From IMG/VR virus record IMGVR_UViG_3300044972_000184, positions 1 through 57,308 of that record: DNA of 57,308 nucleotides; one strand, written 5' to 3'. The notes below the pieces were generated by a model. That model was not told where the DNA came from. It saw only the letters and a list, made by a program, of their open reading frames with translations, and did no database searches. Positions 5,951 to 31,054 of the stretch are shown one piece after another (position 1 is the first letter of the stretch; the number at the start of each line of letters is the position of its first letter). The position numbers and the translations under genes are program-made. The stretch comes from a virus.

Positions 5951-8815
5951 ATGGACACCAATACATTTCTGTACAAAGTTCTGCCGGCACAAGGAGTGTA
6001 TGTCGGCGCGCAGTTGTCGTCCTTCGGGATGCGCCATGCGTTCTTCCACACCATCGAGGACCTGAGTGATTGGGCGCTGGACGCCAGCGCACGTGGTGGC
6101 AACGTCTACTACACCGTGTCGGCCATGAACGATGGCTCCGAGCGGACTCAGGCCAACACACGAGTCACAAAGCTGGTCGCGCTCGACGTAGACTGCGGCC
6201 CCAAGAAGCCATACCCCGGCAAGCGTGAGGGACTGCAAGCCCTGCTGTCGTTCGTCTCCGAGATGTCCCTACCCAAGCCGACGGTCATCGACTCAGGCAA
6301 CGGGCTGCACGTCTACTGGACCCTGACGGACGAACTGGAGCCGGCTGAGTGGCAGCCACTGGCCAACGCCATGAAGGGCGCGGCTATCGCCAAGGACTTC
6401 TACATCGACCGGTCCGTACCGGGCGACAGCGCACGACTGCTACGGATCGTGGGCACCATCAACCCCAAGGGCGGCAACACCGTGAAGGCGCTGATCGACG
6501 CGCCGGCGGTTCACCCCGACACCCTGCGGGCGGCGCTCACAGGGTACACTTTGTCGACGCCGAGTATTCTACCCCCTACCTCCCGACAGCAAACACCCAC
6601 AAGTAAGTTGTCACAAGCCCTTGCTGTCGAGGTCGAGTTCCCTCCGTCCGACCCCGCCGTGCTGGTGGAGAAGTGCGCCCAGATCAAGTGGGCCACCGAG
6701 AACCAAGGCGATGTCGAGGAGCCGTTCTGGTACGCCCTGCTGGGTGTCGCTGCTCACTGCGAAGACCCGGAGGCTACGGCTGTAGCGTGGTCACAGAACC
6801 ACCCGGACTATAGCTACGCCACCACCATCAAGAAGATGGACCAGTGGCGATCAGTGACCACCGGACCGGCGACCTGCGATAAGTTCAGGACCGAGCGACC
6901 GAAGGGCTGCGCGAACTGCAAGTTCGCCAACAAGATCACCACCCCGACCCAGCTTGGTACCAAGTACGCAGAGGTGGAAGTCGCCGCCGACGTTAAGGAC
7001 CCAGTGGCCAGTGAGGTACCGCTGCCGCGCCCGTTCAAGCGCACTGCCGCTGGCATTGTCCAGACCACTGAAGGCACCGACATCGTCATCTCCCCCTACG
7101 ACATCTACCCAGTTGGTTACGGGCGGGACGATAACCTCGGCTATGAGATCGTGCGCTACCACTGGAAGCGCCCCCACCGTGGGTGGTGTGAACTGGTGCT
7201 GCGACAGGCGCACCTCACTGACACCAAGAGCCGAGAGTTTACCACCGACATCGCTGACCAAGGGATCGTGCTGAAGACGAAGACTCAGACAGAAAGTTTC
7301 CAGTTTATGCTGCGCTCATACATGGACAACCTGCGCCAGATGCGCGCGATGACCAACATCTACAACAGCATGGGGTTCAAGGAGGACTACCGCCACTTCG
7401 TACTGGGCACCACGGTCTTCACCAAGGGCGACGATGGCGCTATCACACAGGAACAAATCTCCCTTGCCTCGTCGACGGCCCGCCTTTCAGGCGATCTGTT
7501 CTGCTCACAGGGTAGCCTGTCCGACTGGACCAAGTTCGTGCGGGTGTTTGCACAGGCCAACATGCCGGCGCATGTGTTCATGCTGGGTGTTGGGTTCGCC
7601 TCACCGATGCTGAACCTGACCGGTCTCAACGGTGTGACCATCGCCCTGTCTGGGCCGAGCGGCGCGGGTAAGACGCTGGCACAGCTTGTGAAGCAGTCGA
7701 TCTGGGGCAACCCGGACAAGGTCCACTTCTCTGCCAAGTTCACACAGAACGCTCTGTACAACCGGCTCGGTCTCTACTGCCACCTGCCCATGTCCATCGA
7801 CGAAGCGACGGTCATCTCGGATAAAGAGATCGGTGACTTCCTGTACATGGTTACGCAGGGCCGGGATAAGACCCGACTGACGCGCTCGGCGGAGGAACGG
7901 GAGACCAAGACGTGGTCCTCGATGACCTCGGTGTCCACCAACATCCCGCTCTCGACCAAGCTGTCGGCTGTCAGCAGCGCCACGAACGCGCAGAGCCTGC
8001 GCCTGCTGGAGTTGGACCTGCCCCGGCACCCCCTGTTCACACAGAGCACCGACCTTGGCCGGAAGATATACCAGTTTGTGAACAGCAACTACGGGCTGGC
8101 TGGCCCTGAGTTTGCCAAGTACCTGCTGGAGTTGGGGCCAGACGAGATCAAGCGGCGGATCAAAGAAGCCACGGAGACGTTCTCAAGTCGCTACCACGGG
8201 GCGACGTTCAACGGTGAGGAACGGTTCTGGGAGACCACCCTCGTACTGGTGGACTTGGCGCTGACAATGGCCAGTGAGATCGGACTGATCGACTTCGACC
8301 ATGAGCCATCACTGATGTGGGTACTGGAGCAGCTTGGGGTCAACCGTCAGGCGCTGACCGATAACACCATGGACAGCTTCGATGTCCTGTCAGCGTACCT
8401 GAACGACAACACCAAGTACGCGCTGACGATGATGCACACAGGGGCGAACCCACCGGTGCCGATCTTGAATCGTATGCCACGGGAGGAAGTCCGCATCCGC
8501 TACGATATGTACAGGAGCGGGCCGACTGTGCCGTTCAGCACAGGCACAGTGACCGTCGACAGGGCACACTTCCGCAAGTGGCTTGCGATCAACGCCGGCG
8601 ACTACCGTGGTATGATGAGCCAGTTCAAGGCTGACAACATCGTCATGCCGATCCGTGGTGACAAGGCATACCTCTCCCGCGACACCGACATCAAGATGGG
8701 CCAGTCATACGTGGTCCGCCTGAACCTATCCCACGACAGGCTGAAGGGCATACTCGACGAGGCAGAGAACGCCTTCGAGACAGACGCCTTCAAGCGACTG
8801 ACGGTGGTTAAGTAG
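5951..8815 (+). CDS. Primase-helicase (AEP-like primase fused to DUF927-type helicase)
   Basis: A 954-aa protein. The N-terminal 210 residues show an archaeo-eukaryotic-type primase pattern: ALDVDCG (DxD at 79-81), SGNGLHVYW (115-123) and a following RLLRIVGTIN stretch with the conserved Arg. A helical, Cys-containing linker follows, with PriCT-like character at about 225-320. The C-terminal half is a DUF927-like ATPase with Walker A GPSGAGKT (568-575). Proteins of this build prime and unwind DNA at phage replication forks. The gene ends the plus-strand arm and overlaps the convergent structural operon by 8 bases. No separate DnaB-type helicase is present. Confidence 0.88.
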   Translation: MDTNTFLYKVLPAQGVYVGAQLSSFGMRHAFFHTIEDLSDWALDASARGGNVYYTVSAMNDGSERTQANTRVTKLVALDVDCGPKKPYPGKREGLQALLSFVSEMSLPKPTVIDSGNGLHVYWTLTDELEPAEWQPLANAMKGAAIAKDFYIDRSVPGDSARLLRIVGTINPKGGNTVKALIDAPAVHPDTLRAALTGYTLSTPSILPPTSRQQTPTSKLSQALAVEVEFPPSDPAVLVEKCAQIKWATENQGDVEEPFWYALLGVAAHCEDPEATAVAWSQNHPDYSYATTIKKMDQWRSVTTGPATCDKFRTERPKGCANCKFANKITTPTQLGTKYAEVEVAADVKDPVASEVPLPRPFKRTAAGIVQTTEGTDIVISPYDIYPVGYGRDDNLGYEIVRYHWKRPHRGWCELVLRQAHLTDTKSREFTTDIADQGIVLKTKTQTESFQFMLRSYMDNLRQMRAMTNIYNSMGFKEDYRHFVLGTTVFTKGDDGAITQEQISLASSTARLSGDLFCSQGSLSDWTKFVRVFAQANMPAHVFMLGVGFASPMLNLTGLNGVTIALSGPSGAGKTLAQLVKQSIWGNPDKVHFSAKFTQNALYNRLGLYCHLPMSIDEATVISDKEIGDFLYMVTQGRDKTRLTRSAEERETKTWSSMTSVSTNIPLSTKLSAVSSATNAQSLRLLELDLPRHPLFTQSTDLGRKIYQFVNSNYGLAGPEFAKYLLELGPDEIKRRIKEATETFSSRYHGATFNGEERFWETTLVLVDLALTMASEIGLIDFDHEPSLMWVLEQLGVNRQALTDNTMDSFDVLSAYLNDNTKYALTMMHTGANPPVPILNRMPREEVRIRYDMYRSGPTVPFSTGTVTVDRAHFRKWLAINAGDYRGMMSQFKADNIVMPIRGDKAYLSRDTDIKMGQSYVVRLNLSHDRLKGILDEAENAFETDAFKRLTVVK

Positions 8816-11800
8816 CCCCCATCATATCGTAGATCGCCGCGATGTCTTCGCGGTTGTCCATCGGGGTTGTACGAAGCGCCCGCTCACCGGCGGGACGCTT
8901 CGCTTCCCTGAGTGCGCGCTGGTTCCCCTGCGAGAAGTTGTTTATCCGCAGCCCGGTACCCGCAGCACCCTCGTTCCACTTGGCCACGGCCTTCTCGATG
9001 TCTCGTGCGGCGTCGTTGTCGCCAGCCATCTTGGCCCGGACCCACGCGGTGCGGTACATCGTGACGGTATCTCTACGGTAGTCTGTGATCCGGTTGGCCA
9101 CACGGATAGCCGCGTACTGCTGCGCCGTCTCCGGCGGCTGGAACCCAGTCAGGCGGGCGGCGAACGTGCCGATGGTAGCTTCGCCCGTGACGGTATAGCC
9201 ACGCTTATCGACGACCATCCCGCTCTCAGCGTAGGCCATGGTGTCACCAAGGGCGCGGAGCATCGTGACCGGCGTCTCGCGCAGCACATCCGGCAGCCTC
9301 ACCTGATCCGAGAACGGCAGCCGCAGTGCGTTGTATACCGTCTTCCCAGACTGGATGATGGCAGCAGGCATAGGCCCAGCGATATCTTGGAGTTCGCGCG
9401 TCACGTCGGCACCAGCCAGCAGGATGCCAGTACCGGGAATCTGACCGCCCAGCGACAGCTTGGCCCCGATGTCCACCGGCAGGACCATGTTCATCACACC
9501 CTGCATCAGCGGCACCGACGCGCCCGGCAGGGCGCTCTCCAGCATCTTGGTGCCTTCGGCGCGGATGCTGCCCATCGTCAGGCCCAGTGCCTGCGCGATG
9601 GTGTCCACGATATCTTCTAGGTCCTCAGCGAACGGCAGCCCCTGCAAACCGGAAAACAGGAGCAGCATGAACAGCATGGCGATCTGGCCCTTGCGATCCA
9701 TGTTGGCCAGCAACTGGATCGCCGTGGTCGGGTAGACCTTGTACATGTACAGAATTGTCTGGATGCCACCGCGCCATGCCGGCGGACGGTTGAGCACACC
9801 ATACTCACCCATGGTAACGTCGAGAGTCTCGGCGGCGAACCGGCTGGCTGCGTCGTACGCTTCTTGGTCGGTCTTCTTGTCCAGCTTCTGACGGGCGAAC
9901 TCCAGACGGAAGGCAGCCAGCCCCAGACTACGCCGCGCAGCTTGCTCAGACGTGTTGAACGGAGCCATCCAGACCTCGGTGAACCGCCGCAGGAACGGCG
10001 AGTCAGCATAGCCGCGCGAGGTGTTGAGCAGGGCGTTGGACTGCGCCGGGATCATCCGTCCTTCACGGATTTCGGCGGCGATGAACTTGGCTTCGTTGCG
10101 GGTCAGACCATATTTCTTGAGGTCAGCTTCAGACATATCGGCGTAGAACTCAGCGGTGTTCAGCTTGGTGTCCGTGACACCCGGTGCGCCCACCTGACCC
10201 AGTGCGCGATGATACTCAGAGATAGCGGCACCAGCGCCGAAGCCCCCACCGAAGCCGTTGCGGTCGTTGTACGTGGCGAGGAACGGGATGCCGTTGGTGT
10301 AGACACCGATGAAGTTCATCACCGCCGTGGCGATAGAACCACCAAGCTGGACGGCACTGGCGAAGGACCGCAGGCGGGCGGCGGTAGCCCCGGACTCGAA
10401 GTTCGAGGTCGACACATCGCGGCTCTCGTTCAGGAACTGGACGGTGCGAGACGCCTCATTGTAGAACTCGTTGCCACGCTCGGCCCCACCCTTCGGGTTG
10501 GTGGTCTCGAACATGTACTTGTACCGGTTGTAGTTGCGGCGATCAGTGGTGGTGCCACTGGTCTCGGCCTGCTTCTTGAGGCGGTCCAGTTCCGCCTTGT
10601 TGCCGTTCCACAACTCCTGCGACGAGCGCATCGACAGGTTCATCAGTTCGTTGAGGTACGGACGCATCTCGGTCTTGGCGATGGTCGACGCACGGCTGTC
10701 GATATGTTTTGAGATGGCCTTGATCGCATCGCGCTCGGCACCCGGCACATTGCTGCGCTGCAAACGGTTACGTGCGGCGGCGTTCTGGCGGGTCATGGCG
10801 ACCACCACGTTCTCCACTTCAGTCGGCGTCAGGTTGATGTTCAGTTGGCGCAGACCGTACTGAATTTCGTTCAGGTTGAAACCCGGCGGGCCGGTCACGG
10901 CGTCGAGCGCCCGCTCTGCTGATGCCCTAAGGACCACCTCGGTGTCTTCGACCGTCTGGGTGTCGGCGTTGTACGCCTTCAGCGTGTACCGCTTGGGCTT
11001 GCCGTCCGCAGAGAGAAGCGTGTTGAGTTCGTCAGCGAGGCGCACCACCTGACTTTCGCTCTCCATCTGCATGTAGACGAGTTTGTTGCGTGACGCCTCG
11101 TCCAGCTTAACCGGCTGACCTGTCCGGGGGTTTATAGCTTGGATACGCAGTTGGTACGCACCCTCACGCAGCAGCGGGGTGTAGCCAATGGCCAGCGACC
11201 GGCGGGTGTACAGGTCAGCATCCTTGGTCGACAGACTGTCGATCATCAGTTGCTTCATCCGGGTCTGTACCACGAACTTGTCTTCGCCCAGCTTGATCCG
11301 CTTGCTCAGTTCGCGCAGCTTGGCCACGGTGTCGTCCGGCACTTGGTCCTTGAACTGCGCTCCGATGGCGTCGTAGCCTTCCTTCAGATTGAGGACGCTA
11401 CGGTTGACCGCCACGAGGAAATCGTCGGCCCTCTGCATGGCGGCGCGGTCGAAGACGGTGTTGCCTTCTTCGTCCTGCTTGGTCCCCTCCGCATAGAGAT
11501 TGCGGTACGTGGTGAGAAGGTCATCGAGGAACTTCTTCTCTGCGTCGGTCAGCTTGCCCTCGACCAGTTCGTCGAACTGCCTGAAGCTGACGTTCCTATC
11601 CGCCAGCGTGGCACTGTAGCGGGCGCGCAGCAGGTCGATTGCGGCATCGTCCATGGACTCGCGCAGGGACTCGTAGCCCTTCCACTCGATGCTGTCTTCC
11701 TTGAGGTCCGGGATACCTGCGAACTTCTCCATGCGAGTGGAGCCGTCGATCAGGGTTACGGGGTACTCGAACCCGTCGCGGGCTTGCTTGAACTCGATGC

Positions 11801-14800
11801 GACCTGCCGCCTTGAGGCGGTCGATCTCGTCCTTGTTCGGCGTCAGCACCCCGTTCTCCACGAAGAACAGGGGCGGGCCGTTCAGTTTGCGGACATCCGT
11901 GATGCGCGACTCGGCCAGCGACTGCGCGGCGTAGACCAGCCCGCTGACCTGCTCCTGCACTTTCTTTGCCGAGTTGAAGATCGCGCGGTTGCGCTCGTTG
12001 CTCCTGACCCGGACGCGCGTGGCGATGCCGTTGGTCATTTGCAGGATGTCGTACAGACGCTGTGCGCCGGGGTTCTTGCGACCACGGAACACCTGAAGGC
12101 TGAGGAACTGCCCGACGAACCGGTCCAGCTTGTTGGCAGTGGGTCCGACTTCGTCCACGAACCTGCGCCATGCGCCGGCCATATCGCTGGGTGCCTGCCA
12201 TCCAGCAAAGCGAGAGTCCACGATGGTCTGCTGCGCTCCATGCAGATCGCCCGCCGTGGAGAAGCGACCGGTACCCGCTGGACCATAGCCGTTCTCGACC
12301 ATGTACATGTCAGTGAAGACCTGATCGGTCTGATGGATGTACGGCTTACCCTGCCGCACGTAGGACCGCGAGTGCTTGAGCAGGTGGCGCACCATCTCAT
12401 CACCGAACTTGACGCCCAGCTTGTTGAGGGCGGTCTTGATGGCGTTCCAGATGCGGGCCGCGATGCTGGTGTCGAGGACGCCAGCGAAGTCAGAGAGATA
12501 TTCCTCTACCGCTTCCTCTTTGCTCATGCCCTGCGCCATGTAGGCGTCCACGTCCGCTTGGACATGGGGACTGGACTGGTAGACCTGCGCCATGGTGGCG
12601 TTGAACTTGGCGTTGGGGATGATGCCCCGCAGACCGAAGTGGCCGATGGTCTCGTGCGCCAGCACGAAGTTCAGGTGCTGCTCGTTGGCGATGCGGTCAC
12701 TGAAGATGATGACGTTGCCACCGGCGAACGAGTAGCCTGCTGCCTGTGCGGTATCGAAGTCGCCCTCAGGGCGCGCGGCCAGAGCCTTGCGGTACAGCGC
12801 GGGGTTGCGCTGCATGAAGTCCGCCTGATTGCGGTAGACCCTGACGCTCGGCTTGGTCGCCAGCTTCGACAGAAACTTGTTCACGGCCAGCTTGATGGCC
12901 CCCTGAGACATGGACGTCTCGGGGTTGTTGAACGCCGACAGGGAGAACTTGCCGGTGTCGCTGTCCTTGAGAGTGCGGGTGTCCACGATCTCGACCGGCG
13001 CGGCGCGCTCGTCGCGCTTGCCCTTCAGCAGCTTGGTGCCGACCTCAGGAGCGAGGAACACGGACCGGCCAGCGTCCTTGGGCGTGCCGATCTTGGCAGT
13101 GATGAACTCACCGCCGGCCACAGGGATACGGCTCTGCTCGATCAGGCGCAGCGAACCACGGTCGAAGTAGTCTTGGATCGGTGCCCCACGGTAGGTAGCC
13201 TTGGTATCGCTGGGGTCGATCTCGGTAAACATATCCTCAGCGAACCCGCGAGGACCGTAGTCGTAGGTGGTACCCTCGAAGGTGAACGGCTCGTCCCAGA
13301 TGGCCACGTTGCGCGCCACACCCAGATAGCTTTCGAGGAACCGCTGCAACATCGCCAGCGGAGACGCAGGGTCCACCGCCTTCGGGACAGCAGTAGGCGC
13401 GACAACAGCAGCCGGTGCCTGCTTGGCCTCAAGGACAGCAGCGACCTGCTCACGGATCGCTGGGTCAGCGATCTTGCTGATCCCCTTGACCTTGCCACGG
13501 AGGGGGCGTGTGTCCTCCAGACGACCGGCATCGAGCATGAACTGGAGCCACGGGGCAACGTCAGTACCGGAGACAGCCGACAGCCCTTCGGTCTTTGCAT
13601 CCCTGATCTGCGCGGTGAAGACTTTGCTGATCGTCGCGCGCTGCTTGGCCGTGAACGTGGTGTTCTCGATGAACGACCGTGCCTTATCAGTCAGAGCCTT
13701 GCGCGCCTTGGCTTCCCCCGACGTGATCTTATCGAAGTACCCGACGCTGACGACGTCGTAGATGGCGTCCTCGTACGCATCATCCACCTTGGTGTAGGTC
13801 TCAGCCACCTCAGTGGCCGCAGCCAGCCGCTCAGAGTCAGACATATCTGACCGCTCAACCGCAGTGGTCGACGGACCTACAGCTTTCCGAACAGCTTCCG
13901 CTTTGGGCTGCTGAACAGGCTCGGGCTGGGCGGGCTGCGCTTCTGGCTGCGTTGCTGCGGCGACAGGCGCTCCGGTAGCTTGTCCAGTTGTGCCTCCGGC
14001 ACCGCGCTTGAGACCTTGTCCGCCACGTCCGGCAGGTTGCGTTCGAGCCACCGCAGTTGGCTTTGGCTTTTCACCTGCACGGAGAGTCCTTCCCTTGGGC
14101 GGAGTGGGTGGTGTCGGCGGTTCAGGTTCGGGTTCTACAACTGGCTCGACCTTCAGCTTCTTTGCCTTCGGCGCGGTCGCCCCCTTCTTACGAGCCAGCT
14201 TCTGTTTGCCGGGAGCGACAGGTTCCACGGGTGCAGCGACAGGTGCAGCCTGCGCGGTATACTGACCCAGCGTGTCGCCTTCGTTACCGATGAACTCCTG
14301 AAGCTGCGAGGTGCGCTGCTCATCAAGGCCAAGCGACGGGTCAGTCGCGCCCTGCACCGCAGCAACGTACTGCTGTGCGATACTATCGACTAGCTCAGGG
14401 GGCGCGATCTCGCCGCGCTGCACGATGGCAGTGTACTCATCCAACTGCGTGTTGAAGTCTTGGGCTTCGGGATTCAGCAGCGGGGGCATAGCGAAGTTCT
14501 GCCCGCCAAACATCGGAAGCTGCTGTTGCTGGTCGATGTTGTCGAACAGCGGCAAGCCTTCTGGCTCAGCCGTGCGTTCAGGCGTCGTAATCTGGCTGCT
14601 GTCAAAGCGCGGCGACATCGCCTCGACCCCGCCCTCCGGCGTCTGGAGAGGACCGAGGTTCCCCGGAGCCGTGGCAAACAATTCGCCCTGCCGCTCGACA
14701 GCGAAGTCAGCGTTTAGTGATGGTTGCTGTGGGCCAACGCGCGTACCAGATGCGCCACCTTCGAGGGGAAGTTCACCCTGCGCCATGCCCTGCTCAGGGT

Positions 14801-16088
14801 TGCCGTTCCCCAATACGTCTGCCGGAGTGCCGCGCTTGAGGTTGGCGACAGCGCCGATGGGACCACCGATGGCGGCACCGGCGGCGAACGAGTTGATGAG
14901 GCGCTGGATGTTCTTCGGGTCGGAGAAGTCTTGGTCGGACAGGCCAAGCAGCAGGGCTTCCTGCCCGGCTTCAGTGGACCCTTCGAGTGCAGCGCCAGTG
15001 GCAAGACCCGTACCGGCACGGCGAAGCATATCCCCACGGCGCGCGACCTGCGCTCCACTGCGGACGGCGGTACCGAACACACGGCTGGCCAGTGCGTACT
15101 CCGGCAGCAGGTCCATGGCGGCGTAGGGGATCGAACCGAACAGCGCCGTCAGGCGGGCACCAACGTCTTCAGCGTCAGCACCCTGATCCCTGAGTTCCCC
15201 GTAGATGTCGGACGCACCCATCTGGAGAGAGTTGGCTGTTGCAGCAGCAGTGGCCCCTGCCAGACCGGCGGCGCTCTTGAGGATTTTGCTCTCGGCTTGG
15301 TCGAGTGCTTCGCCCGCAGCCTTCTTACGGGCTGCCGCCAGCACCGCCTGCTTGAACGCCGTGCGTCCAGCGAGACCAGCGAGGGCACCGCCTGCGGCAC
15401 CGAGTGGACCACCGACTGCACCACCAGCGAAGAAGCCCGCAGCGCCAGCACCGATAGCTTCCAACAGCATGGGACCTTGCTGCGCGAGGTTGGCCACGAA
15501 CCAGTCGACAGCGTCACCACCGGACTCGATATCCGTGAACTGGCGTTCGTACGGCTGGGTGCGCCGCAGGTCCTCGACCTGCTGGTCGACGATGCGCTGC
15601 CCTGTTTCTTCTGCACCGATAAGCTGGAGGCCACGGCCACCCAGCATCTGAAGCTGGTCGATCCCTCGACCGAGGTTGCGCGCCGCCAGAGTACCCCTGC
15701 CGGGGTTGCGGATCGACTGCACATAGCCACCGAACTGCTGCTCAGACAGCGGCTGGAAACCTTGCGGCAGCGGTGCGGCTGTGCCCGCCGTGTCAGCAGA
15801 CTCGACGGCAGCTTGGTAGTCTTCAGCGTCGAACATCCGCCCCTTGGCGAAGAACTGGTTGGTCGCGGGGTTGAACCCGAACGACGGACCAGCGGCAGGA
15901 GGCGGTGCAGTACGACTACGTATGCCCTGAACGGCGCTCTCTCCAAGCGCAGTGATCCCAGCAAGCGCAGTTTCGGTGCTACCCATGCCGCCAAGGCTGC
16001 CACCGAGTGACGGTGGAGCCAGTGGACTAGAGGGATCGCCCGCCGGTGGAAGCAGCGGGTTGTTGAACGTCACACCGGCACGGGCCAT
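8808..16088 (-). CDS. Giant internal virion / polyvalent protein (2,426 aa)
   Basis: The largest gene, last in the ejection-protein set and positionally equivalent to T7 gene 16. Residues about 195-340 hold long Gly/Ala-rich hydrophobic segments suited to membrane insertion. Residues 380-780 are a Pro/Gln/Ala-rich linker. At 1145-1150 is H-E-T-I-G-H followed by FGLRG, with an EEAVEEYLSD helix about 55 residues later, the form of zincin-like domains in phage polyvalent proteins. Note that there are three residues between HE and H rather than two. The C-terminal 500 residues look like large polyvalent protein domain LPD38, with several hydrophobic helices. Likely ejected with the DNA to cross the envelope and act in the host. 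Confidence 0.85.
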   Translation of the reverse strand: MARAGVTFNNPLLPPAGDPSSPLAPPSLGGSLGGMGSTETALAGITALGESAVQGIRSRTAPPPAAGPSFGFNPATNQFFAKGRMFDAEDYQAAVESADTAGTAAPLPQGFQPLSEQQFGGYVQSIRNPGRGTLAARNLGRGIDQLQMLGGRGLQLIGAEETGQRIVDQQVEDLRRTQPYERQFTDIESGGDAVDWFVANLAQQGPMLLEAIGAGAAGFFAGGAVGGPLGAAGGALAGLAGRTAFKQAVLAAARKKAAGEALDQAESKILKSAAGLAGATAAATANSLQMGASDIYGELRDQGADAEDVGARLTALFGSIPYAAMDLLPEYALASRVFGTAVRSGAQVARRGDMLRRAGTGLATGAALEGSTEAGQEALLLGLSDQDFSDPKNIQRLINSFAAGAAIGGPIGAVANLKRGTPADVLGNGNPEQGMAQGELPLEGGASGTRVGPQQPSLNADFAVERQGELFATAPGNLGPLQTPEGGVEAMSPRFDSSQITTPERTAEPEGLPLFDNIDQQQQLPMFGGQNFAMPPLLNPEAQDFNTQLDEYTAIVQRGEIAPPELVDSIAQQYVAAVQGATDPSLGLDEQRTSQLQEFIGNEGDTLGQYTAQAAPVAAPVEPVAPGKQKLARKKGATAPKAKKLKVEPVVEPEPEPPTPPTPPKGRTLRAGEKPKPTAVARTQPAGRGGQGLKRGAGGTTGQATGAPVAAATQPEAQPAQPEPVQQPKAEAVRKAVGPSTTAVERSDMSDSERLAAATEVAETYTKVDDAYEDAIYDVVSVGYFDKITSGEAKARKALTDKARSFIENTTFTAKQRATISKVFTAQIRDAKTEGLSAVSGTDVAPWLQFMLDAGRLEDTRPLRGKVKGISKIADPAIREQVAAVLEAKQAPAAVVAPTAVPKAVDPASPLAMLQRFLESYLGVARNVAIWDEPFTFEGTTYDYGPRGFAEDMFTEIDPSDTKATYRGAPIQDYFDRGSLRLIEQSRIPVAGGEFITAKIGTPKDAGRSVFLAPEVGTKLLKGKRDERAAPVEIVDTRTLKDSDTGKFSLSAFNNPETSMSQGAIKLAVNKFLSKLATKPSVRVYRNQADFMQRNPALYRKALAARPEGDFDTAQAAGYSFAGGNVIIFSDRIANEQHLNFVLAHETIGHFGLRGIIPNAKFNATMAQVYQSSPHVQADVDAYMAQGMSKEEAVEEYLSDFAGVLDTSIAARIWNAIKTALNKLGVKFGDEMVRHLLKHSRSYVRQGKPYIHQTDQVFTDMYMVENGYGPAGTGRFSTAGDLHGAQQTIVDSRFAGWQAPSDMAGAWRRFVDEVGPTANKLDRFVGQFLSLQVFRGRKNPGAQRLYDILQMTNGIATRVRVRSNERNRAIFNSAKKVQEQVSGLVYAAQSLAESRITDVRKLNGPPLFFVENGVLTPNKDEIDRLKAAGRIEFKQARDGFEYPVTLIDGSTRMEKFAGIPDLKEDSIEWKGYESLRESMDDAAIDLLRARYSATLADRNVSFRQFDELVEGKLTDAEKKFLDDLLTTYRNLYAEGTKQDEEGNTVFDRAAMQRADDFLVAVNRSVLNLKEGYDAIGAQFKDQVPDDTVAKLRELSKRIKLGEDKFVVQTRMKQLMIDSLSTKDADLYTRRSLAIGYTPLLREGAYQLRIQAINPRTGQPVKLDEASRNKLVYMQMESESQVVRLADELNTLLSADGKPKRYTLKAYNADTQTVEDTEVVLRASAERALDAVTGPPGFNLNEIQYGLRQLNINLTPTEVENVVVAMTRQNAAARNRLQRSNVPGAERDAIKAISKHIDSRASTIAKTEMRPYLNELMNLSMRSSQELWNGNKAELDRLKKQAETSGTTTDRRNYNRYKYMFETTNPKGGAERGNEFYNEASRTVQFLNESRDVSTSNFESGATAARLRSFASAVQLGGSIATAVMNFIGVYTNGIPFLATYNDRNGFGGGFGAGAAISEYHRALGQVGAPGVTDTKLNTAEFYADMSEADLKKYGLTRNEAKFIAAEIREGRMIPAQSNALLNTSRGYADSPFLRRFTEVWMAPFNTSEQAARRSLGLAAFRLEFARQKLDKKTDQEAYDAASRFAAETLDVTMGEYGVLNRPPAWRGGIQTILYMYKVYPTTAIQLLANMDRKGQIAMLFMLLLFSGLQGLPFAEDLEDIVDTIAQALGLTMGSIRAEGTKMLESALPGASVPLMQGVMNMVLPVDIGAKLSLGGQIPGTGILLAGADVTRELQDIAGPMPAAIIQSGKTVYNALRLPFSDQVRLPDVLRETPVTMLRALGDTMAYAESGMVVDKRGYTVTGEATIGTFAARLTGFQPPETAQQYAAIRVANRITDYRRDTVTMYRTAWVRAKMAGDNDAARDIEKAVAKWNEGAAGTGLRINNFSQGNQRALREAKRPAGERALRTTPMDNREDIAAIYDMMGAT

Positions 16089-24991: not shown

Positions 24992-25401
24992 GCGCCGGAC
25001 GTCAGTGAGTAGGACAGAACGAGTACCCTCGGCGGGTTGGTCGTCCCTCGGCGGCGGAGGCCCATAGTGCGTGTACCGGAATCAAAGCCGCTCCCCGCCG
25101 GTCTGGATTCCGCGACAACATACGTGGACGTCAACGGAGTCCAAATGGTAAACACAGGCGGAGTACTCTGTGTAAAGTCTTCCGATATCTCGTAGTTATC
25201 AGCGAACGATTCGGCAGACGGTACGAGCCAAGTGAACACGGAGAAGGACCCCGGCCCAGTGAACGCCTGCCCGTTACCGTTGTTGTAGAACTGCCAAGAC
25301 ACACTGGCATCGCTCCCCCCTGTGGGAGCTATATCAGACAGAGACGCTGGGATACCGCTCAGTGTCAGGTTCTCTTGGTATGATGCCAGCAGGGCGAACA
25401 T
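24988..25401 (-). CDS. Hypothetical beta-rich tail-associated protein (137 aa)
   Basis: Start set at ATG 25401, which overlaps the stop of the upstream fibre (ATGA). An upstream in-frame start at 25452 lies inside the fibre gene. The protein is rich in Ser, Thr, Gly, Pro and aromatic residues and looks like a beta-sandwich. It directly follows a collagen-like fibre gene, which suggests a fibre tip, adhesin or capping subunit. No family recognised. Confidence 0.65.
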   Translation of the reverse strand: MFALLASYQENLTLSGIPASLSDIAPTGGSDASVSWQFYNNGNGQAFTGPGSFSVFTWLVPSAESFADNYEISEDFTQSTPPVFTIWTPLTSTYVVAESRPAGSGFDSGTRTMGLRRRGTTNPPRVLVLSYSLTSGA

Positions 25402-26900
25402 CAGTCGACCCCGGTGCCGGAGACAATCGCCTCGTTCGTGGAGATGAACCACAGGGTCGCCATCCCGTAGCGAGGGATTGTCCGTTCGCCAGTGAACGTG
25501 GTGCCCGCAAGACGCAGGGTAACGCCGGTGAACGGGGTCAATGCGGCTGACCCGGTGAAGTTATTATAAACCGTCACCACCGCACCTGTCGGCATAGTGT
25601 TTGTGGGTACCAGAAAACTGGAGCTACCTAGCACAACGACCTTGCCGGCCTCACTCGCCTGCAACGCTGGCGTTGCGCCTGACCGGAACACAGGTTCCAG
25701 AATAGCGCCGGCTATACCCGTTGGACCCGTTGGACCGGCAGCGCCCGTCGGACCGTTGCCGCTAGGACCTGTCGGACCAGTGGGGCCGGGCGAACCCGTA
25801 GGACCGGAAGCCTGCGGACCAGTGGGACCAGTGGGACCAGCGGCAGTGCTTGCTGCACCCGCCGGACCTGTCGGACCTGTGGGGCCGCCGCCGGATATAC
25901 CTTGCGGACCTGTGGGACCCGTCGGGCCGGATGAGCCGGTGGGGCCGCCGCCGCTAGGGCCTGTCGGACCAGTGGGGCCAGCGCCGCCCGAACCCGTCGG
26001 ACCGCCCGGACCTGTAGGACCAGTGGGGCCGGTGCCACCCGAACCCGTCGGACCAGCAGCACCTGTCGGACCAGTAGGACCAAGGCCGCCGGAACCCGTC
26101 GGACCAGCAGCACCTGTCGGACCTGTGGGGCCACCGCCGGATATGCCCTGCGGACCAGTGGGTCCTGTCGGGCCAGCGACCGTGCTTGCATCGCCTTGCG
26201 GACCAGTGGGTCCCGGAGGCCCAACGATCTGGCCGACGTTATCCCACGCAGCGCCGTCCCATACGTAGAGATCACCATCAGCCGTGACGATGTATGCGTC
26301 GTTGACTGTGTTGCCCGTGGAAGGGAGAGCGCCAACAGTGGCTACCTCGCCCTTGAAAATAATGGACGTGCCTTGCAGTCCTTGCGGGCCAGTGGGACCT
26401 GTCGGACCTGCGACAGTCGACCCGGAACCCGCCGGGCCAGTCGGACCGGCTACCGTACTAGCTGCACCGGTGGGACCGGTTGCGCCCGCCGGACCGGTGG
26501 GGCCGACTATCGTGCTTGCTGCACCAGTAGGGCCAGTCGGACCCGTGGGACCGACGATCCTGCCCACGTCATCCCATGCAGCACCATCCCAGACATAGAG
26601 GTTGCCGTTCGCCTGTACAATGTAGGCATCGTTGACGGCGTTACCCGTGGGCGGGAGGTCTCCTACAGTGGCAACGCTACCCTTGAACGTGATCGACACG
26701 CCTTGCGGACCCATCGGACCAACGATGCCGCCGTACGGCAGGCTCAGATATGCCGTGACCCCGTCGCCAATCTTGAACTGATCGGTGTCCGTTTCGAGAA
26801 CAAGTTCACGGTCAGCCAAGATGGGATTGAACGAAGTCCAGCGCGCCAGCGTGTCGCCGCGCAGCGCGAACCCGATGGTGGATGATGGGGTGATCGGCAT
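25401..26900 (-). CDS. Collagen-like tail fibre (GPT repeats)
   Basis: A 499-aa fibre. Residues 1-60 are a phage fibre head domain: [33 protein letters not shown]. Next comes a small beta module of about 50 residues ([20 protein letters not shown]...) that recurs at about 178-230 after a first collagen stretch. Long Gly-X-Y runs follow, dominated by GPTGPTG, up to about residue 400. A beta-rich C-terminal domain of about 90 residues probably trimerises or binds receptor. Collagen-like triplets form triple-helical rods. It shares its N-terminal domain with the fibre at 28775-31054 and is followed by coupled virion genes. Confidence 0.9.
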
Positions 26901-26905
26901 CAGCT

Positions 26906-27967
26906 TTATGCCTCCAGTTTGGCCCGGTAGAAGGCAAGGTTGTTCTTCAATCGTTCATCAGCAGGCTCAAGCTGGCAAGCCAACTCGCCCTGCTCCACGG
27001 CCTCACTATACTTGTTTACATGAAACGCGGCAATGGCTGCGAGATCATGTGGTTTCGCCCCCCACACAGACGGGTCCATCGTGTAGACCAACGCCTTATC
27101 CTTGATTTCCAGAGCGCGTGAGGCGGCATCGTAACATGTCTGCCAGTCCTGCTTGCGGTAGGCCAGATCGGCCATCTCCACCCACGGTTCTCTGGTGTTC
27201 GGTGCTTCGGCGGATGCTTTGCGGTACCACTCCATCGCGGTATCAGGCTGCCCCAGCTTGTCGTATGCCTGCCCCAGTAGCCGCATGGCGTAGCAGCGTT
27301 CGTTCGGCCAGTTCGCCTGAGGGTTGTCGAGGTACTTAAGCAGCGCGACGATGGCGTCCACCCACTTGCCGTAGAACGTCAGTTCGCGGGCGTAGTAGAA
27401 GGCATTGCGCGGGCAGTGCGGGTCTTCCTTCACCGACAGTTCGAGCAGATCGAGATACTGCCCCCGGCTCTTGGTCGGGTCAGGCTTATGGACAGCCAGC
27501 AACATATCCGTCCGCGCCCACACTTCAGTGATGCGGCCATCGGCGCGAGGGTATTCGTGACACGGGTGGTGCCAGTGGTAGCCGTGGCGCGCGTGGATTT
27601 TCTCGTAGTAGAAGATGATCCCGCAGCCCCAGTCGAACTTGTAGGACAGGCGGGTGGTGTCAGCGTTCCAGACGCGCTCGATCTCCTCACGCCATCCGGG
27701 CTGAAGGACTTCGTCGAGGTCGAGGCTGATGCACACGTCGATGTCACGGGGGAGTAGAGCCAGCGCGGTGTCGCGCGCTTTATCGAAGCGCCATGGCGTG
27801 ATGCAGATGTCATGGACTACAGCGCCATGGGCGCGGGCCTTCTCTACCGTGTTGTCCGTGCTGCCGGTATCCGCGATCAGGATGAGGTCAGCGTCCTTGG
27901 CCGCCTCACAGAACCGCTCGACAAACATCTCCTCGTTCTTGCTGATAGCGTAGACTGCGATCTTCAT
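26906..27967 (-). CDS. Family 2 glycosyltransferase with TPR repeats
   Basis: A 353-aa protein. The N-terminal GT-A domain shows [16 protein letters not shown] (33-40) and the metal-binding DLDE (83-86), with WHHPCHEYP downstream. Residues 220-350 form tetratricopeptide helices ([22 protein letters not shown]). GT2 enzymes move sugar from nucleotide-sugars onto acceptors; a TPR domain often binds a protein acceptor. The gene lies between two GPT-rich collagen fibres in the same operon, so it may glycosylate fibre threonines. Modification of host surface glycans is the alternative. Confidence 0.9.
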
Positions 27968-27992: not shown

Positions 27993-28454
27993 TTATGCTG
28001 GCACTTCAGGCCAGAGGATGTTGAAAGGGTCAGGCTGAGCGGTGATATCGCGCAATGCTTGGCGGTACGTCGCCCATTGAGTGGCGTTTACCGGAGCGTC
28101 AGCAACCTGCGTCCAGTCGGAGGCGACCAGCTTCGCATTACGATCAGCACGAACAACGGCCCATTGTGCCTCGACCTTTGCCGCAGCTTCGCCGGCATCT
28201 AGGGCGCTCACGATATAGTTCTGTGTCCACACACCGTCGATCAGCAAGGCCGGTCCATGCTCCCGCTGCTGGATGGCTGGGTCAAAGTAGGGCGGCGTAA
28301 CCAGCTTCAGCTTATGAACACCGAACTGCACGATCTGCTCAGGCGTCAGCTTCGCCACCCGACAGAAGTTGTCATCGTCCCAGCGCGTCGGCTCGACATC
28401 ATGGATATGCCGAACGAATGTGTCGCCATTAGCTTGGACGTAGAACAGGCTCAT
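27993..28454 (-). CDS. Phage tail assembly chaperone-like protein
   Basis: A 153-aa protein whose C-terminal 60 residues match the tail assembly chaperone pattern: RADRNAKLVASDWTQ, then WATYRQALRDIT, and PFNILWPEVP at the end. In many phages this family is encoded beside tail fibres and helps fold or attach them. The N-terminal 80 residues form a beta-rich domain. It ends just before the glycosyltransferase and overlaps the next upstream gene by 4 bases. Confidence 0.82.
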   Translation of the reverse strand: MSLFYVQANGDTFVRHIHDVEPTRWDDDNFCRVAKLTPEQIVQFGVHKLKLVTPPYFDPAIQQREHGPALLIDGVWTQNYIVSALDAGEAAAKVEAQWAVVRADRNAKLVASDWTQVADAPVNATQWATYRQALRDITAQPDPFNILWPEVPA

Positions 28455-28756
28455 GCCTCGGCTTCCTTCGCTTTTCGCTTGGCGGTGACGCGCTCTACGG
28501 CTGCTGCGTACTCCGCGTCGTTGTCGATCTGCGACCGCAGTGCCTCAATAACAAGCAAGACATTGAGCATCTGCTTGCGGGTTACATCCAGACGCTCAGA
28601 TACGTTCGCCGCGAACTCGTTATCTACGGCGTTTGCCAACAGATACTCAAAGTTTATGCGGTCGAAATCGTAGTGGAAATACTCCGCTTCGCGGGCATAC
28701 ATTGCGTCTGCGATTACGTCGTATTTGTACTCGGTTGGAAGCTGTGCATACTTCAT
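28451..28756 (-). CDS. Hypothetical helical protein (101 aa)
   Basis: A 101-aa all-helical protein with a tyrosine-rich N-terminus (YKYDVIADAMYAREAEYFHYDFDR) and an Ala/Glu/Lys C-terminal helix. Its stop overlaps the chaperone-like gene start (ATGA) and it follows the larger collagen-like fibre. It may be a partner of the chaperone in fibre assembly. No family recognised. Confidence 0.7.
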   Translation of the reverse strand: MKYAQLPTEYKYDVIADAMYAREAEYFHYDFDRINFEYLLANAVDNEFAANVSERLDVTRKQMLNVLLVIEALRSQIDNDAEYAAAVERVTAKRKAKEAEA

Positions 28757-28774: not shown

Positions 28775-31054
28775 TTATGGGTTTATTGAGAAGGCCACAC
28801 CGTCGCCCGATGGGGAACCCGATGGCAAAGTCGTCGGGTTGGCATACTTGGTTCCAAACCCAGTGGTTGAGTTCCACGGGTAGGCAGTAATGAAGGGCGA
28901 CGACTGATGCGCAACAGCAATCGCATTACCCGCAATAGAGAACGCGACACTCAAAGCATTACTCGTCGGCAATGTTGCCGGGTCAGCGTATTTTGTGCCA
29001 AGACCGGACGTGGTGAATGGATATACAGTGATTCGCGGCGAAGTGTAATGTGCTATCGCGATACTGTCACCTGCGGGGGAGATCGCTATGCCCTCGGCGT
29101 AGCTCGTCGGCAGTGTCGCCGGGTTGGCATACTTGGTGCCGAACCCGGTGGTTGAGTTCCATGGGTAGACGAAAATAAACGGAGTACCGTTCGATGCTAT
29201 CGCAATGGTGTCACCTGCGGGGGTAAACGCTACGCCTTTGCCGGGATTACCCGGCAACGTCGTTGGGTCAGCGTACTTTGTACCAAAACCGGTGGTGGAG
29301 TTCCACGGGTAGGCCGTAACAAATGGCGAGTTCTGATGCACCACTGCAATGGCGTTGCCTGCGGGAGTGAACGCTACATCGAAACTCCCGAAAGTCGGTA
29401 GTGTCGCCGGGTCAGCATACTTGGTGCCGAACCCAGTAGACGAGTTCCATGGATAGGCTGATACATAGGCAGTGGTAGTATTACTGCCGTTCGCCGTGGC
29501 GATAGCGTCACCTAACGGCGAAAAAGTTACACCGTTAGGCGAAGTCGGCAGTGTTGTCGGGTCAGCGTATTTGGTGCCAAAACCCGCCATGGACCATGGG
29601 TAGACAATGAGTTTGCCGCCTACGACAGCCATTGCATCACCAGACGGGGTAAACGTCACGTCTCGGCCTACCGCTGGGTCCAATGTAGCTGGATTGGCGT
29701 ACTTGGTACCGAAGCCTGCCGCTGACCATGGGTATGCGGTGATGAACGGACTTGACTCGTGCGCTAGGGCGACAACTTCGTTTCTTAACGGCAAGCCTGT
29801 TTGATACAGATAATTTGCCATCCACTTGGTGGCTGTAACCTTAATGCACATCAGCGTGTTGTTTGCTGCCACGACCAGAGGTCCCGTGGTGTTGTTTCCA
29901 AACACCAACGTGTCGTTCGTTATCTTGACGGTGACTAGAACACCGCCGTTCTCCACCGTAAACAGCAAAACCGTGCCGATGGGGAAGGCTACGCTGCCGT
30001 TTGATGGGATGGTGTAAGTGCGGGTGACTGTGTCGCTGGCCGGGTGGAATATCTGCTTGCCCGCATCACCCAGCACAAGCGTGTAGTCTGCTGACCGGCT
30101 GTTCTGCGGGAAACTGACCGCACCGCCCGCCGCTGCGCTAGATACCCACGACGTTCCGTCGCTAGTCAGGACGTTACCTGAAGTGCCGGGAGCGACAGAC
30201 GTATCCCATGCCGTGCCGGTCGAGATGACCACGCCTGCTGCCGGGTAGACTGTGGGGCCGGTCGGGCCAGTCGGCCCTAGGTTGCCAACATCGCCAGTAG
30301 CGCCCGTCGGACCAGTGGGGCCTGCTACCGTTGAAGCGTCACCTGTAGCGCCCGTTGGCCCAGTCGGGCCGGCAACCGTCGAGGCGTCACCCTGCGCGCC
30401 TGTAGGGCCTGTCGGGCCTGCAACTGTGCTTGCGCTGCCGGGAACGCCTGTGGGGCCTGTGGGACCTGCTACAGTGCTTGCCTCGCCCTGCGGACCGGTG
30501 GGACCAACTGGACCAGCGACCGTGCTATCTGCACCCGCAGCGCCGGTCGGACCTGTCGGACCAGTGAGACCTGTCGGACCTGTCGGACCAGCGACCGTGC
30601 TACCTGCACCCGCCGCACCGGTGGGGCCGGTCGGACCCAGATTACCTGTCGGGCCAGTCGGACCCAGATTACCCGTCGGACCGGCTGATCCCGTCGGACC
30701 GGTAGGGCCGACGATCTGGCCGACGTTAGTCCAAGCCGAGCCGGTCCAAGCATACAGATCGCCATCAGCCGTGACGATGTAGGCGTCGTTGACGGCGTTA
30801 CCCGTGGGCGGGAGGTCGCCAACGGTGGAGACAGTTCCCTTGATGTTGATCGACGCGCCTTGCGGTCCAGTCGGACCAACGAGGCCGCCGTAGGGCAGGC
30901 TCAGATAAGGGGTGACACCATCACCGATCTTGAACTTATCGGTGTCGGTTTCCAGCACCAACTCGCGGTCAGCAAGGACCGGGTTGAACGAGGTCCAGCG
31001 CGCCAGCGTGTCGCCGCGCAGGGAAAGCTGGAAGATCGAGGCGCTAATGGTCAC
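28775..31054 (-). CDS. Collagen-like tail fibre with seven-repeat C-terminal domain
   Basis: A 759-aa fibre. Residues 1-115 are nearly the same head domain and [14 protein letters not shown] module as in the fibre at 25401-26900. About 150 residues of Gly-X-Y collagen repeats follow (GPTGPTG interrupted by ADSTVAG-type units), then a 150-residue beta region. The last 320 residues contain seven repeats of 44-50 residues built on [S/T]xxxxxYPW...GFGTKYA[N/D]PxTL...VxFxPxGDxIAxx. Seven repeats with such strands predict a seven-bladed beta-propeller, with the strand before repeat 1 completing the last blade. A receptor-binding tip is the likely role. GTG start overlaps the upstream stop (GTGA). 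Confidence 0.88.

Follow-up and report, generated by a model that had tools for sequence, protein, structure and literature searches.

A seven-bladed beta-propeller with a variable face as probable receptor-binding tip of a collagen-containing phage tail fibre

The IMG/VR virus record IMGVR_UViG_3300044972_000184 (57,308 bp, analysed over its full length and termed the window in the following) encodes a tail fibre whose C-terminus is predicted to fold into a closed seven-bladed beta-propeller. This propeller probably serves as a receptor-binding tip that presents a single composite recognition face undergoing diversification. We infer the receptor role from where the propeller sits in the fibre, which genes adjoin it and how its sequence varies; trimerisation of the fibre and the exact geometry of the face are presumed. 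The tip family touches on receptor recognition in uncultured aquatic phages, which is mostly unknown territory.

The Fibre Gene and Its Neighbours

The window carries podovirus-like genes for an internal virion protein, a head-tail adaptor, a terminase and a DNA polymerase, and its major capsid protein shares 54% identity with the homologue from Rhizobium phage RHph_TM3_14A, with HMO-2011/CRP phages also being matched. A 2426-aa open reading frame (8808-16088, minus strand) matches PHROGs of unknown function only, and these in its C-terminal part. The fibre gene, its parts and the adjacent genes are compiled in Table 1. Mtd_N presumably constitutes the end by which the fibre docks to the virion. 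The longest G-X-Y run in the stalk comprises 12 triplets, and a G-X-Y region above the PF01391 cut-off, a fibre context and a chaperone gene are found together, as in collagen-like phage tail fibres.

Table 1. Features of the propeller fibre gene and adjacent genes (positions in the window)
Feature	Positions	Strand	Evidence
Tail-fibre gene, 759 aa, GTG start	28775-31054	-	Open frame; PHROG tail/tail-fibre matches
Mtd_N (major tropism determinant N-terminal domain), aa 12-48	30911-31021	-	PF18454, 29 bits (cut-off 26.3)
Small insert common to paralogous fibre, aa 70-115	30710-30847	-	61% identity, N-terminal part
Collagen-like G-X-Y stalk, interrupted, aa 116-268	30251-30709	-	PF01391, 37.9 bits (cut-off 27.2)
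Adaptor beta domain, ~110 aa, aa 313-425	29780-30118	-	Upstream neighbour of propeller in many relatives
Seven-bladed beta-propeller, seven ~47-aa repeats, aa 426-759	28778-29779	-	Repeat HMM, AF2, Foldseek
Conserved partner, 101 aa, predicted three-helix bundle	28451-28756	-	AF2 pLDDT 93.5
Tail-fibre assembly chaperone (Phage_tail_APC)	27993-28454	-	PF16778, 62.7 bits; PHROG 4912 tail fiber assembly
Paralogous collagen fibre with same N-terminus, without propeller	25401-26900	-	161/265 identical, N-terminal part

Just 18 nt separate the fibre gene from the gene for the 101-aa partner, which follows it and precedes the chaperone gene. The partner found no match in Pfam, PHROG, NCBIfam or an annotated phage collection, and 38 of 80 relatives encode a homologue downstream of their propeller gene. 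In 64 of these 80, a chaperone homologue follows the propeller gene within 3 kb. The C-terminal part of the paralogous fibre has no significant BLASTP match to the propeller fibre, and the notion that its C-terminal domain is of the same kind as the adaptor domain was rejected since BLASTP homology was not significant. Between the two collagen-fibre genes resides a gene for a glycosyltransferase with TPR (26906-27967, minus strand; PHROG 13126, E 2.8e-102). Homologues are present at 10 other propeller loci, and their co-occurrence with collagen in propeller loci is not significant (Fisher p = 0.32).

Seven Repeats Form a Predicted Closed Propeller

A repeat HMM delineated seven full repeats extending from residue 432 to the C-terminus, in agreement with the original prediction of exactly seven. 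Their G[FL]GTKYA cores, found within a few bases of the positions given there, are situated at 29716-29696, 29584-29564, 29434-29414, 29290-29270, 29146-29126, 29005-28985 and 28861-28841, with core-to-core spacings of 44, 50, 48, 48, 47 and 48 residues. An AF2 model of aa 313-759, computed as a monomer on an alignment of 31 sequences, yielded the seven-bladed propeller that structure prediction had been proposed to reveal, with a pTM of 0.80 and seven sets of three long strands. Ten-residue blocks of the propeller mostly reach 84-92 pLDDT with dips to 72, and the adaptor domain is the lower-confidence part of the model. The best solved structures retrieved by Foldseek were the designed seven-bladed WRAP proteins 7bie/7big and the highly repetitive 2ymu; lactonases aligned with a TM of 0.75.

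AF2, Foldseek, repeat counts of 7, 14 and 21 among relatives and the existence of circular permutants thus all conform to a seven-bladed propeller. Together with the PF01391 match, the structural evidence and the repeat counts corroborate the earlier proposal of a closed propeller at the C-terminus of a collagen-containing fibre. The suggestion that the strand VVALAHE completes the ring was right in substance, as the C-terminal GVAFSIN provides strand a for VVALAHE/FITAYPW. Permutants that close at another point are expected of a closed ring. On the other hand, the claim of recent duplication is weak for the window copy. Its repeats are 49-70% identical in codon-aligned DNA and share codons with a z score of 3.9, compared with a median of 9.3 in relatives, and so look old.

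Repeat Number in Related Proteins

Repeats were counted in 88 non-redundant complete relatives (ORFs). Seven repeats were present in 68 of them, 14 in ten and 21 in one, and three further proteins contain seven in circularly permuted form, starting in strand d and ending in strand c. A multiple of seven is therefore found in 83 of 88, including the three permutants and one protein (L021) that was counted as seven since its eighth match comprises 20 residues outside the propeller. Two exceptions with five and six repeats are interrupted genes, whose missing repeats are encoded in the neighbouring frame (5+2 and 6+1). Other counts off the multiples of seven are nine in L026, 12 in L074 and five in L062. 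Two of the circularly permuted propellers (L054 and L066) stem from contigs 139 kb and 250 kb in length, which implies that the family reaches very large phages.

It had been cautioned that the repeat number might be an assembly artefact, and counting in relatives had been recommended. Repeats are indeed hard to assemble and a few relatives have 5, 6, 9 or 12 of them, but the window repeats, at the DNA identities given above, are resolvable by short reads, and 7, 14 and 21 dominate across independent assemblies. As most of the relatives have multiples of seven, the worry is answered, and we regard an artefact of near-identical repeats as extremely improbable.

Extent of the Family and Diversity of Shafts

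Searches of IMG/VR retrieved 432 related stretches with one query at E<=1e-3 and 414 with another; together with counts on multiples of seven, this places the repeat array far beyond chance. One scan across 85,000 cellular genomes returned four relatives, all of them in metagenome-assembled genomes. The propeller family is thus large (>400 loci in viral contigs) and rare in cellular genomes. It is not well covered by any Pfam, NCBIfam or PHROG model, and for the repeats of the window protein none of these collections offered a curated model. With the Pfam Lactonase model the latter scores 18.5 bits, below the cut-off of 21.7, and it has no WD40 match in Pfam; the cut-offs of PD40 and Lactonase are passed solely by the relative with 21 repeats. 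A literature search on phage WD40 tail fibres, largely confined to papers available without subscription, brought up nothing on the propeller family.

Among relatives, the propellers are attached to diverse tail-fibre shafts or short leaders, and collagen is present in few. Collagen is incidental to the propeller, since in most relatives this tip is joined to a different shaft or to no shaft at all. Part of the family consists of a propeller with a short leader only and no visible shaft, so that the term tip does not fit every member. The adaptor is the last domain of several propeller-less phage fibres (L238, L240, L241), and the propeller therefore looks like an added tip. In three cases (L008, L030, L035), two or three propeller genes are arranged in tandem, some of them sharing the leader PGGLIRKTPVTPAGPYQNGAAPGVWTL...QGLWP. 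In Pseudomonas phage POR1 (L005, 2586-4810), a collagen-like ORF immediately precedes a separate, diverged propeller ORF. The view that a propeller on a collagen stalk is an unusual fibre design needs amending, as precedent exists for the combination (PMC12923769) and for receptor-binding proteins with propellers (PMC7048315). The combination of propeller and collagen is already known, and the phage tip family with its hypervariable face is unnamed. Neither the extent of this family nor the hypervariable face figured in the original observation.

Variation Concentrated on One Predicted Face

Positional entropy was computed over 284 distinct repeats of 47 aa. Scaffold positions hardly vary, including the W, K, Y/F and N/D motif positions of each blade, and variability peaks at positions 24 and 40 (3.3-3.4 bits), followed by 22 (3.0) and 41 (2.3). 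Positions 22 and 24 are part of the d-a loop, 40 and 41 of the b-c loop. As these two loops share a face in an antiparallel blade, all four positions should point to the same side of the propeller, an assignment that is based on strand order, i.e., blade topology, and not on inspected coordinates.

By counting over 15 independent pairs of relatives with a synonymous divergence near 0.38, dN/dS amounts to 1.20 at positions 22, 24, 40 and 41, a value that at this divergence is near neutrality and makes no strong case for positive selection, and that refers to positions picked from a family-wide variability in which most of the tested pairs are included. It is 0.67 in the remainder of their loops, 0.26 in the loops of the opposite face and 0.09 in strands and core. 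The contrast between same-face and opposite-face loops persists when loops are assigned by topology, and it recurs in two pairs fetched after the positions had been chosen (L138/L147 and L162/L219). When repeats of one gene are compared at positions 24 and 40, agreement is lower in the first two bases of the codon (0.30-0.35) than in the third (0.43). Bulky or charged residues are admitted at these positions (58% and 21%) and almost never occur in opposite-face loops. In two pairs (L066/L054 and L021/L017), identity is 97-100% across most flanking bins and drops to 85-96% in the propeller; in L162/L219 and L064/L072 the propeller is not the most divergent region. The best relatives of the window's own propeller share ~60-65% identity with it. 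Because it lacks a close relative, selection was measured in relatives only, and the window copy is presumably subject to the same selection.

This pattern bears on two other functions that a propeller may have. It could be structural or decorative, like the nozzle proteins of podoviruses, with loops that vary because they are unconstrained. The core of the SU10 nozzle protein is a seven-bladed propeller (PMC9509320) and many family members stand alone with short leaders, but lack of constraint accounts poorly for the lower variability and dN/dS of the opposite-face loops or for the near-restriction of bulky and charged residues to one face, and the propeller is located at the end of fibre proteins beside a fibre chaperone. 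A structural role thus appears quite unlikely. Alternatively, conserved YPW...GFGTKY[AT][ND]P residues could build seven equivalent sugar pockets that bind a repeated surface glycan by avidity, as in lectin-type propellers. The near invariance of the motif positions in every blade would fit such pockets, as would the proposal that contractile injection systems possess collagen-shafted propeller lectins (PMC12923769); yet the invariant residues may simply be structural, and the same-face loops vary between blades of one protein, opposite to what identical pockets would require. Their identity is 0.197 between blades of one protein and 0.177 between proteins. Blades of one protein hence differ like separate proteins, which speaks for a single composite surface rather than seven equivalent lectin sites and renders the latter unlikely.

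Probable Exchange Between Repeats

Within a gene, the repeats have more synonymous codons in common than codon usage predicts (z>3 in 64 of 68 genes), and in the pair L138/L147 the best repeat matches occur at shifted positions. On these grounds, repeat exchange is likely. A diversity-generating retroelement that rewrites the hypervariable codons, as for BPP-1 Mtd, appears very improbable in comparison. Mtd_N is indeed present at the N-terminus of the fibre and C or T is frequent as the last base of hypervariable codons (0.77-0.80), but codons ending in A or G, e.g., TGG, CAA and GAA, occur as well. Furthermore, neither a reverse transcriptase in the window or the records of 50 relatives, many of which are fragments, nor a single-repeat template copy outside the genes in such often fragmentary records was found.

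A Model for the Fibre Tip

In the model that we favour, the fibre would dock via its Mtd_N end and be extended by a short, interrupted and presumably trimeric collagen-like stalk and the adaptor domain, so as to display a closed seven-bladed propeller at its tip, presumably three per fibre. In each blade, the d-a and b-c loops of the rigid, conserved scaffold would together bear four hypervariable residues, and the resulting ~28 residues on one face would form a single composite recognition surface for the host receptor. Variants may arise from point changes at the hypervariable codons as well as from exchange or conversion between similar repeats, the latter being constrained to seven blades, and selection would retain changes that alter binding.

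If a fixed scaffold with four specificity positions per blade proves true, specificity classes could be read from sequence. The family would also provide a natural case of a repeat-protein binder that diversifies via repeat exchange, and its evolution can be compared cleanly with that of the fungal allorecognition propellers.

Comparison With Known Systems

The fibre resembles Mtd of Bordetella phage BPP-1 in combining an Mtd_N docking domain with a diversified tip. In Mtd the tip is a C-type lectin domain diversified by a retroelement, whereas here it is a propeller and no retroelement was found in the window and the records of 50 relatives, many of them fragments. Highly repetitive propellers of the WD40/YVTN-lactonase type (2ymu, WRAP; PMC9218822) are similar in having seven blades with internal repeat similarity and a V-A-F-S-P-x-G strand a, and are matched by Foldseek and phmmer. 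In contrast to them, the window protein stays below the curated Pfam propeller cut-offs, has a motif of its own and is phage-borne.

A predicted propeller and a collagen-like shaft also occur in the eBAP3 fibres of extracellular contractile injection systems (PMC12923769). There, however, the collagen shaft joins a TNFR-like C-terminal domain, while in the window fibre the propeller is the C-terminal tip, and the likeness concerns the combination of domains. The trimeric staphylococcal phage receptor-binding proteins phi11 gp45 and 80alpha gp61 contain a propeller suggested to bind the receptor (PMC7048315). Unlike the tip described here, it is five-bladed and forms a platform in the middle of the protein, on a coiled-coil stem and followed by tower domains. 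The nozzle propeller of SU10 illustrates that phage propellers can be structural too (PMC9509320).

A parallel in use is provided by the allorecognition propellers HET-D, HET-E and HNWD of Podospora anserina, whose repeats undergo concerted evolution and harbour four positively selected codons each, two of them in the d-a loop and two in the b-c turn (PMC1805685, PMC2873952). The phage family shares with them similar repeats, homogenisation within genes and, in every repeat, two pairs of diversifying positions; in relatives of the window fibre, these positions lie in the d-a and b-c loops, and repeat exchange is probable. The fungal proteins are NLR sensors with a variable number of repeats, whereas the phage family keeps seven per propeller and is found on tail fibres. 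On this evidence, the phage propellers would work like HET-E/HNWD, a likeness that we treat as one of use only. A bolder reading, which we consider possible rather than probable, is that phages independently reached an antibody-like platform, in which a frozen propeller with ~28 variable residues on one face, diversified by retroelement-free repeat exchange and placed as an interchangeable tip on unrelated shafts, would represent the phages' equivalent of the recognition propellers known from fungal HET-E.
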